A stretch of DNA of 36,868 nt from Synergistaceae bacterium (lineage in GTDB: Bacteria; Synergistota; Synergistia; Synergistales; Aminobacteriaceae). Position 1 is the first letter of the stretch, and every line of letters starts with the position of its first letter. The notes under the pieces were generated by a model. That model did not search any database, was not told the origin of the DNA, and worked only from the letters and a program-made list of their open reading frames with translations. Of the stretch, positions 3,917 to 25,605 are shown one piece after another. Position numbers and translations under genes: made by a program. Where the stretch lies: NCBI GenBank assembly GCA_031272145.1, contig JAISUL010000101.1, forward strand, positions 1 to 36,868. The letters are read 5' to 3'.

Positions 3917-4240
3917 ATGCCCCGCCTGCGATGGATGTTCGCGGCGGCTCTGGCGGCGCTGGCGTTCTCTATAGCCAGCACCGTCTACTGCTTCGAGATT
4001 CGCAAGATGCTCCACCTCCACGCCGTCATCGCCGAGCGCTCGGCAAAGCTGACCGAAAAACAGCGCCGCGTCGGCATATACCGCGACTTGGTGGAGTTCT
4101 ACAACACGGACGAGGGCATAGCGCACCTCGCACGTGATGAGTACAACATGACCTTCCCAGGCGAGCGGGTCTACATCATAATCACGTCCGGCGACGCAGG
4201 AGCCAGCCCCCCAAGGGGAGCTAGCTCCCCAAGGGGATAA
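3917..4240 (+). CDS. FtsB/DivIC-type septum formation initiator protein
   Basis: A 107-aa membrane protein with a short basic N-terminus, one transmembrane helix (about residues 7-26, AAALAALAFSIASTVYCF), a heptad-rich coiled coil (about 30-62) and the family motif region EFYNTDEGIAHLARDEYNM followed by PGE. FtsB/DivIC proteins link early and late divisome components through FtsL and FtsQ/DivIB. It begins 2 nt after argS and ends 19 nt before lysS. The last 15 or so residues (GASPPRGASSPRG) are not part of the family; they are encoded by palindromic copy B, which also supplies the stop region, so the tail looks like an element-driven extension. FtsB and DivIC cannot be separated by eye. Confidence 0.85.
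   Translation: MPRLRWMFAAALAALAFSIASTVYCFEIRKMLHLHAVIAERSAKLTEKQRRVGIYRDLVEFYNTDEGIAHLARDEYNMTFPGERVYIIITSGDAGASPPRGASSPRG
4199..4238. repeat. GC-rich palindromic element, copy B (3' end of ftsB-like gene)
   Basis: CCCCCCAAGGGG and CCCCAAGGGG units joined by AGCTAGCT. Near-identical over about 40 bases to copy A in thyX. The self-complementary core GGGGAGCTAGCTCCCC could form a cruciform or RNA hairpin just ahead of lysS. Confidence 0.75.
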
Positions 4241-21759: not shown

Positions 21760-22518
21760 TTATTTAACCCCGAACGTCAGGACTGCGCGGAGGCTGCGCA
21801 CGTCGTAGCCGCCATCCTTCGGCGCCTGCTCCTCTTTAAGCGTCCGCACCATCCAGAGGCCGGGCTCCGTGAGCTTTATTTTCGCCACGCCGTCCGCGCC
21901 GCTCTCCGTGTAGTAGGCGTACGTGTTCGGGATGTCCGAGAACCCGTCCCTCGTCGCCCAGACCGGGGCGGAGAGGGGCTGCCCCCGGAGCAGGAGCTTC
22001 ACCTCGAACAGATCGCCTACCTTCGCCGTGGCCGGATTCCCCATGGGGACGATCTCAAGTTCATGCCCCACGACCGCGGAGAAGCCAGAATCGCCCTCCG
22101 ATGGGTTGACCACCATTTTGGCGTACTTGTCGTTCTTCGACGCGCGGAGCACCTTCAGTCCCCGTGACTCGAGCTCCCCGCGGCTGCCGGCCATGCCTCC
22201 CTCGTTGGTGACGCTCCAGATTCCTCCGTCCTTGACCGCCGTGATGATAGCCGTGCCCTTGGAGACGGGGGCGTCGAAGGCGAGCAAGCCGTCGCCCGGT
22301 GCAAGCAGCAGGTTGTCCGCCACGCCGAAGACGCCGGCGTTGATGCGCGACGCGTCCTCGACCTCCTCCTTCGCGATGAACACGTGAGTGGAGTACAGAG
22401 CCATCGGCAGCACGTCCCCTGACGCGCTCGTCGATGACGGCTTAATGATGAGCTCGTGCGCCTGTGCCCCTGCCAGGGACACCCACGCCAGAAACAACCC
22501 AAGAACCAACTTCTTCAA
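21760..22518 (-). CDS. nikK: NikK-like DUF4198 periplasmic nickel-uptake protein
   Basis: 252 aa. Signal peptide (LVLGLFLAWVSLAGAQA) and a mature N-terminus AHELIIKP/HELIIKP, followed by an all-beta DUF4198-like domain: GDVLPMALYSTHVFI, HELEIVPMGNPATAKVGD, FEVKLLLRGQPL, PGLWMVRTLKEE. DUF4198 proteins accompany NikM in ECF nickel systems and are thought to pass metal to the membrane subunit. TTG 22518 with AGGAGG eight bases upstream. First gene of nikKLMQO. Its Shine-Dalgarno/start unit is duplicated in tandem just upstream. Confidence 0.85.
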   Translation of the reverse strand: MKKLVLGLFLAWVSLAGAQAHELIIKPSSTSASGDVLPMALYSTHVFIAKEEVEDASRINAGVFGVADNLLLAPGDGLLAFDAPVSKGTAIITAVKDGGIWSVTNEGGMAGSRGELESRGLKVLRASKNDKYAKMVVNPSEGDSGFSAVVGHELEIVPMGNPATAKVGDLFEVKLLLRGQPLSAPVWATRDGFSDIPNTYAYYTESGADGVAKIKLTEPGLWMVRTLKEEQAPKDGGYDVRSLRAVLTFGVK

Positions 22519-22553
22519 AAAAATCTCCTCCTGTTCAAAAAAATCTCCTCCTG
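22514..22553 (-). promoter_or_regulatory. Tandemly duplicated ribosome-binding/start unit of nikK
   Basis: TTCAAAAAAATCTCCTCCTG (+ strand) occurs twice with no gap, 22514-22533 and 22534-22553. Read leftward, each copy holds CAGGAGGAGA, a T-run and TTG. The upstream copy opens a 7-codon ORF whose TGA overlaps the real nikK TTG, so it could couple or compete for initiation. Confidence 0.7.
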
Positions 22554-22635: not shown

Positions 22636-24348
22636 ATGGGTGTTTCACTCTATCGGCGGTACAGGCCGCGACGGTTCTCCGAGGTTACGGGGCAAGACAC
22701 GGCCGTGGGCGTTTTGACGCGGGCAGTGGCGCGCGGCAGCGTGGGGCAGGCGTATCTGTTTTCGGGGCCGAGGGGCTGCGGCAAGACCACGGTCGCCCGC
22801 CTGCTGGCGAAGGCGATCAACTGCACGGCGCGGGGGGCCGACCAGTTCGAGCCATGCTGCGAGTGCCAGAACTGCCTTGCGATCGCCGCCGGGGAGAGCC
22901 TCGACGTCATCGAGATAGACGGCGCGTCGAACAACAGCGTCGACGAGGTGCGCGAGCTCAAGAACCACGTCGGCCTCGCGCCGTTCGTCTGCCGCTGCAA
23001 GATCTACATCGTGGACGAGGTGCACATGCTGTCCATAGCCGCGTTCAACGCCCTGCTCAAGACCCTGGAGGAGCCGCCGGAGAACGTCGTGTTCATCCTA
23101 GCCACGACGGAGGCTCACAAGGTTCCCGTCACGATCCGCTCGCGGTGCCAGCACATACCGTTTCACCGCATAAGCGCTGCTGGCATCCGCGACCGTCTGG
23201 CTGAGGTCTGCGCCGCGGAGTCCATCCAGTACGACGGCGCCGCCCTGTGGGAGCTTGCGCGTCAGGCCGACGGAGCCCTGCGCGACGCCCTCTCCATGCT
23301 GGAGCAGGTCAGCCAGCTTAAATCAGAAAAGATAACCATAGCCGACGTAGAGGCATGCCTAGGCCAGGGAAGCCGTCCGGCGCTGGAGCGCTGGCTCAAG
23401 GCCAAACGGGACGGGGGCAGCGAGGAGACGTTCATCGCGCTGAACAAAATGCTGTCCAGCGGTGTCTCGCCTGTGCGCCTGCTGGAGGAGCTTTTTACCC
23501 TTGTGCGCGACCTATGGCTTGCCGCCCGCTGGGGCGAATCCGCCGTGTCTGCCCTCGACGCCTCCGACGAGGAGCGAGCATACCTGATGGCCGAAGCACC
23601 CCTGTGGGACGCAGGAGAGCTGTCGCGCCTGATGTCCTTCATAGCAGACCTGCTGCCCCAGGCCCGCATGGGCATGAGAGCCGACGTAATAGCCGGCCTC
23701 CTAACCCAGGCCAAGGAGTCACAGGCCAAGGAGGCGCAGTACAAGGAGGCGCAAGCGCCCCTTGAAAAGCAGATGCCTAGCGGGGCGCGGGTGCCGCGCG
23801 TAGGGCCTGCTCCCCGTGAGGAGCGGGCGCAGCGCGCAGAGCGCCCCTCGGCTCCCGCTGCTCCTGATTCGGATATGTGGGGGAAGATGCTCGACGTTCT
23901 GAAATCCAGCTCCTTCCTCCTGTACTGTGGCCTGTACGACGCCGAGGCGCTCTTCTCCGACACCGGCACCGTTGCTCTGATTCCCGCCGACCGCTACTGC
24001 TACGAGGTCTTGAAGCAGAGCCGGAACCACGCCCTCTTGCGAAAGCTGCTGGCGCCGTTTTGCAGCGATGTTGTCCTTAAATACCAGGGAGCAGACACCC
24101 CTGAGGAGGCAGACACCCCTGAGGAGGCAGTCGCCCCTGAGGAGGCAGTCGCCCCCGAAGATGCAGCCGCTCCCGAGGAGGCAGTCGCCCCCGAGGCCTA
24201 CCCAGCGCTGCCCGAGGCTGCTGCCGATGAAACGCCGTTCGCCGGGCTTGTGACGGAGGTCTCGCGTCTGCTGAACGGCGAGGTCATGCTGTTGCGAACC
24301 GCGAGCACCGTGAGCTATGACGGCGTCACGGAAGACTTCACGGACTGA
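22636..24348 (+). CDS. dnaX: DNA polymerase III subunit gamma/tau
   Basis: 570-aa clamp-loader subunit. [20 protein letters not shown] is the classic DnaX start. Walker A is [10 protein letters not shown], the zinc cysteines lie in [13 protein letters not shown], Walker B is IVDEVHML, and [20 protein letters not shown] and [14 protein letters not shown] follow. Domain III and a C-terminal tau-like region are present. ATG 22636 has GGGG seven bases upstream; the frame is open further upstream but unrelated. Two low-complexity stretches stand out: [15 protein letters not shown] (about 420) and a P-E-E-A/V/D-x repeat (about 482-515) built from near-perfect 18-nt units. No A-rich slippery heptamer for programmed frameshifting was noticed. 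Confidence 0.95.
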
Positions 24349-24395
24349 AGCCCGTCCGCATAGCGGCGGGGTATAATAGCCCAGCGGGAGGTAGT

Positions 24396-24433
24396 CCCCC
24401 CGAGGAGGTGAGGGGGTCTGAACCCCCAAGACA
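24396..24433 (+). promoter_or_regulatory. queD leader: Shine-Dalgarno separated from ATG by a perfect hairpin
   Basis: GGAGGTGA (24404-24411) lies 25 nt before the queD ATG, too far for initiation. Between them GGGGGT-CTGA-ACCCCC (24412-24427) forms a perfect 6-bp hairpin. With it folded, the distance from GGAGG to ATG is 9 nt. An upstream CCCCCC (24396-24401) can instead pair with the same GGGGG and put the Shine-Dalgarno in a loop, so two exclusive folds exist. The sequence belongs to the palindromic repeat family (copy F, about 24386-24427). A lone TATAAT at 24372-24377 may be a local promoter. Confidence 0.65.
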
Positions 24434-24787
24434 ATGCTGATTCGTAAGGAGTTCGCGTTCGACGCGGCGCACAACTTGGTTCACTACCGCGGGAAGTGCG
24501 AGGCGCTGCACGGGCACAGGTACAGGCTGGCGGTCGAGGTCGAGGGCGAGCCGGACGCGGATGGCATGGTGATGGACTTCGGCGACGTTGCCGATGTGGT
24601 CAGGCGGCGCGTCGTCTCGCGGCTGGACCACGCATATATAAATGAAATAATCGCATCCCCCACCGCCGAGAACATCGCGGCATGGACGTGGCGCGAGGTG
24701 GAGCCGGAGCTGCCCGGCCTGTCGCGGGTCGAGGTGTGGGAGACGCCGGAAAGCTGCGCGATTCTGCGTCGGGGGGACAGGCGTTGA
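24434..24787 (+). CDS. queD: 6-carboxy-5,6,7,8-tetrahydropterin synthase
   Basis: 117-aa T-fold enzyme converting dihydroneopterin triphosphate to 6-carboxytetrahydropterin for queuosine synthesis. The zinc histidines lie in FDAAHNL and LHGHRY, the catalytic Cys in GKCEALHGH, and the Asp-His pair in RLDHAYIN; SPTAENIA and WETPESCAI are typical of QueD. The gene is directly followed by folE2 with a 4-nt TTGA overlap, which fits a pterin supply route: FolE2 makes the substrate of QueD. No other que genes are in the window. Confidence 0.93.
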   Translation: MLIRKEFAFDAAHNLVHYRGKCEALHGHRYRLAVEVEGEPDADGMVMDFGDVADVVRRRVVSRLDHAYINEIIASPTAENIAAWTWREVEPELPGLSRVEVWETPESCAILRRGDRR

Positions 24788-25605
24788 TTGACGTCCAGAA
24801 CGAGCCCGACCACCGCGGCCTCCCGATCGACCGAGTCGGGGTGCGAAACGTGAGCTACCCGGTGTTCATAGCCGGAGATAGAGCAAACCCAGGGCGCAGC
24901 GCTGATGCAACTTTTTCTATGTCAGTGGCGCTGCCGGCTGAGCGCAGGGGCGTGCACATGAGCCGCTTCATCGAGACGATCGAGGAGTACGCCGCCTCCA
25001 TCTCCCCCGCGTCGGTGAGGGCTATGACCGAGAGTCTGCGCGTGCGTCTCTCCTCCTCCTCCTCCGAGGTCGAGGTGCGCTTCCCCTACTTCGTCCGCAG
25101 GAGGGCGCCCGTGTCGGGGAAGGAGAGCCTCACGCGGCACGACGCAGTATTTAAGGGCACGTCATTTGGGGACTCGTTCGGCCTAATCGCCGGAGTCGAC
25201 GCACACGTCCACACCCTATGCCCCTGCTCAAAGGCCATATCCGAGTTCGGGGCGCACAATCAGAGGGCAGTCGTCCGCATAAGGGTGCAGCCGCCCAACA
25301 CCGATCCGCCGGACCTTTCTGATCTTATTAACGCCGCCGAGCACGCCGCCTCCGCCCCGTTATACTCGCTTATGAAGCGCGAGGACGAGAAGCGCGTGAC
25401 CGAGGCCGCTTACGAGAGGGCGCGCTTCGTGGAGGACGTGGCGCGTGACGTGGCCTTGGCCATGAGCCGCGACGCGCGCGTGGCGTGGTACGACGTAACG
25501 GTCGAGAGCATGGAGAGCATCCACAACCACGACGCCTTCGCGCACATTGCTGGGGGCTCCCTCAAATGGGGTTCCCCCGACGGGGGCGAGGAAAATAGCG
25601 GTTAG
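24784..25605 (+). CDS. folE2: GTP cyclohydrolase FolE2 (type IB), with element-derived tail
   Basis: 273-aa enzyme making dihydroneopterin triphosphate from GTP. LCPCSKAISEFGAHNQR contains the catalytic/metal Cys region of type IB cyclohydrolase, and ESMESIHNHDAFAHI the C-terminal His motif. Start TTG 24784 overlaps the queD stop (TTGA) and has GGGGGGAC upstream. FolE2 can work with metals other than zinc, so its presence, with no FolE in view, suggests zinc-independent pterin synthesis. The last 17 or so residues (GGSLKWGSPDGGEENSG) lie beyond the usual family end and are encoded by palindromic copy G. Confidence 0.93.
   Translation: MIDVQNEPDHRGLPIDRVGVRNVSYPVFIAGDRANPGRSADATFSMSVALPAERRGVHMSRFIETIEEYAASISPASVRAMTESLRVRLSSSSSEVEVRFPYFVRRRAPVSGKESLTRHDAVFKGTSFGDSFGLIAGVDAHVHTLCPCSKAISEFGAHNQRAVVRIRVQPPNTDPPDLSDLINAAEHAASAPLYSLMKREDEKRVTEAAYERARFVEDVARDVALAMSRDARVAWYDVTVESMESIHNHDAFAHIAGGSLKWGSPDGGEENSG
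25552..25590. repeat. GC-rich palindromic element, copy G (3' end of folE2)
   Basis: GGGGGCTCCC, then GGGGTTCCCC, then CCCCCGACGGGGG. It encodes the extra tail of FolE2 and lies just ahead of the next gene's start. Confidence 0.55.

Follow-up and report, generated by a model that had tools for sequence, protein, structure and literature searches.

The leader of queD in this window (the whole 36,868-nt stretch of DNA analysed) is probably a split ribosome-binding site of the type described for T4 genes 38 and 25, created by the insertion of a short palindrome that would loop itself out of the mRNA. This mechanism is already known; what is new is the proposed origin from a dispersed repeat that allows the ribosome to bypass it. 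If this explanation is true, the leader represents a split ribosome-binding site on a bacterial chromosome that arose from a mobile repeat, and shows why hairpin-shaped repeats are tolerable even at the point where a leader is most sensitive. The genome (G000) is 2.05 Mb long and 98% complete, and the window corresponds to its contig C47. The relatives mentioned below are Synergistaceae bacteria, mostly MAGs, whose isolate names suggest a termite-gut habitat.

Structure of the queD leader

The following features were identified in and around the leader.

22726–24348, + strand: dnaX, upstream of queD (start approximate)
24372–24377, + strand: TATAAT, candidate −10 box of a queD promoter, with no good −35 and no TG extension
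24396–24401, + strand: CCCCCC run, putative partner of the G-run in a competing fold, judged from the sequence and fold energies
24404–24411, + strand: Shine-Dalgarno (SD) sequence GGAGGTGA, an 8-nt match to the canonical anti-SD
24412–24427, + strand: perfect hairpin GGGGGT-CTGA-ACCCCC with a 6-bp stem and a 4-nt loop; member of the GGGGTCTNAGACCCC family minus one base, probable insertion
24434–24787, + strand: queD, 117 aa, PTPS/6-carboxytetrahydropterin synthase family (Pfam PF01242, E 8e-37)
24784–25605, + strand: folE2, GTP cyclohydrolase, GCHY-1 (PF02649, E 1e-82, match from profile position 1)

The order SD, hairpin, and ATG, described in an earlier note on this DNA, was reproduced with each element at its position. 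The distance of 25 nt to the queD ATG was measured from the GGAGG core and becomes 22 nt if counted from the end of GGAGGTGA; the stretch between the hairpin and the ATG at 24434 is AAGACA. Since GGAGG-to-start spacing in the whole genome peaked at 7–9 nt (based on rough gene calls), the value for queD was an outlier. Subtraction of the 16-nt hairpin gives a spacing of 9 nt (6 nt from the end of GGAGGTGA), in agreement with the earlier calculation. The ATG was fixed as the start by two observations: an in-frame TGA is located upstream at 24419, and queD of relatives has its start at this same codon, the protein beginning M-L-[IVL]-x-K-E-F. An alternative queD start was thus ruled out, and a different start codon in relatives, which the earlier note had named as an outcome against its reading, did not occur.

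The candidate −10 box was not picked up by a sigma-70 consensus scan; TATAAT or TGTAAAAT was present approximately 40–60 nt 5′ of the queD start in many relatives. Read-through from dnaX into queD is also possible. Downstream, a possible TTG start of folE2 overlaps the queD stop (TTGA, 24784–24787), and both this start codon and translational coupling of folE2 to queD via the overlap are plausible from the sequence.

In the leader, a strong SD is too distant from the real start to be functional, and a stable hairpin is located wholly between the SD and the AUG; removal of the hairpin restores a normal spacing. According to PMC3014915, hairpins were experimentally shown to bring the SD–AUG distance from 22 to 5 nt in T4 gene 38 and from 27 to 11 nt in T4 gene 25; for T4 split ribosome-binding sites, PMC3014915 cites Nivinskas 1999 and Malys and Nivinskas 2009. 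The queD leader resembles both genes, as a strong SD lies too far away and the intervening hairpin changes the distance from 25 to 9 nt (or 22 to 6 nt). Distant T4-like phages are described in PMC3014915 as being without the gene 25 arrangement, and the relatives compared here are likewise without that of queD. Unlike the T4 genes presented there, queD is a chromosomal bacterial gene, its hairpin is one member of a dispersed repeat family, a competing fold is possible, and the case is known in silico.

We propose that a copy of the dispersed GGGGTCTNAGACCCC palindrome was inserted between the queD SD and the ATG, and that one base was lost from it afterwards. At the mRNA level, the insert would fold into the 6-bp hairpin and take 16 nt out of the path, and the ribosome would meet GGAGG at a distance from the AUG that is normal in this genome. 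Translation of queD would continue and the insert would be tolerated because it loops itself out. We infer that the palindrome is an insertion and not the ancestral state; ribosomes would be expected to start across the folded hairpin.

The leader comparison proposed in the earlier note covered approximately 20 Synergistaceae queD leaders, all from outside the genus. These were plain leaders with starts at the same codon: the hairpin was found in none of them, and most had an SD-like purine stretch 4–12 nt from the queD start. The leader of the closest relative (locus L038, 70% queD protein identity) was GGAGGTTAAGGCAA-GTG, that is, GGAGG followed by 9 nt, and the queD leader minus its hairpin, GGAGGTGAAAGACA-ATG, resembles it. 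Alignment of the two with a 16-nt deletion gave 11/18 identical positions, which does not by itself prove a 16-nt insertion because some 8-nt deletions score equally. The assembly containing L038 (G022, 9% contamination) holds two different queD genes, L038 and L039, with GGAGG + 9 nt and GAGGAG + 10 nt, respectively.

A dispersed family of palindromes

The claim that the hairpin belongs to a palindrome family was borne out. GGGGTCTNAGACCCC was found in 99 copies at ≤1 mismatch and 160 copies at ≤2 mismatches in the genome; the reversed control gave 0 and 9 copies, respectively. The family palindromes were 15–17 nt in length and their copies were arranged in 17-nt tandem arrays. Compensatory changes in the arms were observed in some copies (GGGGCCTGAGGCCCC, GGGGGCTCAGCCCCC, and GAGGTCTAAGACCTC); among the two-mismatch copies in G000, 5/21 were compensatory (chance, approximately 1/39), although the copies are not independent.

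The 16-mer of the queD hairpin occurred exactly once in the genome and corresponded to the consensus minus one base. For the census, we used a sample of 257 kb, consisting of the stretches around all 53 exact copies and the window, with genes called roughly by codon usage. In 20 Markov resamplings of this sample (>5 Mb in total), the expected number of one-deletion variants of the consensus was 0. Read as a two-substitution copy, the queD hairpin was less exceptional, with a Markov expectation of 1.75 per 257 kb and 21 observed. The latter expectation would allow a GC-rich leader to contain a short perfect palindrome by chance, unrelated to the repeat family. We regard this as extremely improbable in view of the result for the one-deletion reading, the perfect stem, and the position adjoining the SD, as in many family copies.

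Family copies were widely spread and also present inside genes, indicating that insertions can be merely tolerated, and the AAGACA before the ATG is without an SD. These observations would suit a passive, mildly harmful insertion, after which queD is poorly translated from the AUG without its SD, or after ribosomes have opened the stem from an upstream standby site. However, a single stem fills exactly the excess spacing, which fits loop-out better; moreover, the stem is still perfect after the base loss and queD is otherwise intact. Hence, we consider a passive insertion unlikely and the insertion with loop-out the better explanation.

The search was extended to 80 other genomes of the taxonomic family. 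The palindrome was abundant only in the two genomes belonging to a single sister genus (G007, 105 copies; G022, 35 copies), and the remaining genomes had 0–10 copies each. In G007, the palindrome was the core of a MITE-like repeat of approximately 110 nt with inverted ends GGAAGCACTGATTAA / TTAATCAGCGTTTCC. This repeat (loci L166–L205) contained GGGGCCTGAGGCCCC and GGGGTCTGAGACCCC as internal hairpins. The full repeat was found only in G007 and G022; in G000 the hairpin core alone matched, and a MITE with terminal inverted repeats was therefore rejected for this genome.

The family was also compared with REP, the GTAG- and CGTC-tagged palindromes with RAYT transposases, which are 20–40 nt long and located mainly 3′ of genes (PMC3733652). 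Both systems consist of short dispersed palindromes in more than 100 copies, form tandem groups, and give transcribed hairpins (PMC3733652). In contrast to REP (PMC3733652), the GGGGTCTNAGACCCC family has palindromes of 15–17 nt without a GTAG/CGTC tag, is often located 5′ of genes at the SD, and is accompanied by no Y1_Tnp gene that we could find. Inspection of 136 flanks of 8 nt from 68 copies yielded GTAG once and CGTC twice, and assignment to REP was rejected. A search for RAYT (Y1_Tnp, PF01797) gave no match in the 98% complete genome, while controls matched in 5/14. No match to the tandem units was obtained in a scan of viral sequences. Small GC-rich or palindromic mobile sequences that also occur inside genes are represented by the GC clusters of yeast mitochondria and the Rickettsia palindromic elements. 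These belong to other organisms and have other sequences; they are likened to the GGGGTCTNAGACCCC family by general description, mechanisms aside.

Predicted competing folds of the leader

The isolated hairpin (24412–24427) had a predicted energy of −10.0 kcal/mol. The earlier note had also pointed to an upstream C-run that could pair with the same G-run, and this pairing does exist in the predictions. Taking 24384 as the transcript start, an assumption inferred from TATAAT, the forced competing fold and the hairpin were ≤0.2 kcal/mol apart (−21.0 vs −21.2 kcal/mol for 24384–24450 and −29.4 vs −29.2 kcal/mol for 24384–24464). In the longer transcript 24341–24480, the competing fold was much weaker (−50.9 vs −54.2 kcal/mol), and the probabilities were 0.008 for the competing fold and 0.99 for the hairpin. 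For transcripts from 24384, the hairpin probability was 0.36–0.59, and the competing structure took 40–64% in the short-transcript folds and 80% for the leader alone. In the competing fold, the SD would be located in a loop, well away from the AUG. In the longer folds, part of the SD was paired with other upstream bases. The competition between folds thus appears real on paper, and would depend on the assumed 5′ end.

These folds bear on a bistable translational switch, in which C6 and ACCCCC compete for one G-run. queD, and folE2 by coupling, would be on with the downstream hairpin and off with the upstream one enclosing the SD. The near-equal energies of the folds in the transcript from 24384 are in favor of such a switch, as are the predictions that the competing fold would precede the hairpin during transcription and that the winning fold depends on the transcript start. 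On the other hand, the arrangement was found in no relative, there was no Rfam match, and no ligand or protein is suggested. The hairpin was strongly dominant in the longer transcript, and a CCCCC run at this distance is no rarity (within 30 nt in approximately 5% of the noncoding stretches of this genome). The switch is speculative, and we judge both the competition for the G-run as a control device and the two states assigned to it to be quite improbable. For the switch suggested earlier, we found nothing beyond arithmetic and energy estimates. The earlier note had left a choice between a repeat insertion surviving by looping itself out and its adoption as a switch; the former is the best explanation of the data, and the latter is quite improbable.

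Two other classes were tested for this region. Rfam covariance models, including riboswitches such as preQ1, gave only two sub-threshold, chance-level hits in 24300–24500. An intrinsic terminator was also rejected, as the hairpin is followed by AAGACAATG with no T-run and was absent from the terminator scan.

Family copies at ribosome-binding sites

The positions of the copies relative to ribosome-binding sites were investigated in the census sample. An SD and a start codon within 14 nt of an edge were observed for 15/53 clusters, compared with 3.2% of random positions (p 7e-11). With the same measure, the noncoding clusters gave 11/40 compared with 4.8% (p 2e-6). The usual order in G000 was element, AAGGAGG, and start, with a gap between element and SD as small as 0 nt. 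In G007, 0/48 palindrome clusters were located at a ribosome site. A strong positional preference for the upstream edge of the SD was therefore observed in G000 and not in the sister genus. Examples of palindromes touching this edge within loci L132–L165 of the same genome were L132:2846, L137:3113, L148:3936, and L155:2151.

In queD this order was reversed to SD, element, and start, and queD was the sole clear case of an element between the SD and the start. A second SD–element–start arrangement, also with a spacing of 25, was observed at a cytidylate-kinase-like gene (L147). It was set aside and not counted as clear because the AGGA at this site probably represents a tandem-array spacer. If the insertion with loop-out is true, the family copies, which are located at numerous ribosome sites of a single genome, provide a test set for the loop-out idea. 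A further conjecture is that an SD-preferring palindrome family supplies ready-made elements for control at the RNA level, the queD copy and the C-run together forming a bistable on/off leader whose state is set by transcript start or elongation; we regard this as very improbable.

Other repeats were observed in the same genome. GGGGAGCNAGCTCCCC represents another palindrome family, which has tandem units of 18 nt, is located at 1302–1353 and 4199–4237 of the window, and occurred at approximately 20 genomic places at ≤1 mismatch. The window also contains a direct repeat, TTCAAAAAAATCTCCTCCTG, in two perfect 20-nt copies (22514–22553), and, close to the 3′ end of dnaX, a tandem repeat of 18 nt (24098–24196, PEEAVA units). 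At L158:3504–3555, a predicted coding region contains the GGGGTCTNAGACCCC palindrome three times in tandem, with a GAGGGC-type repeat after it.
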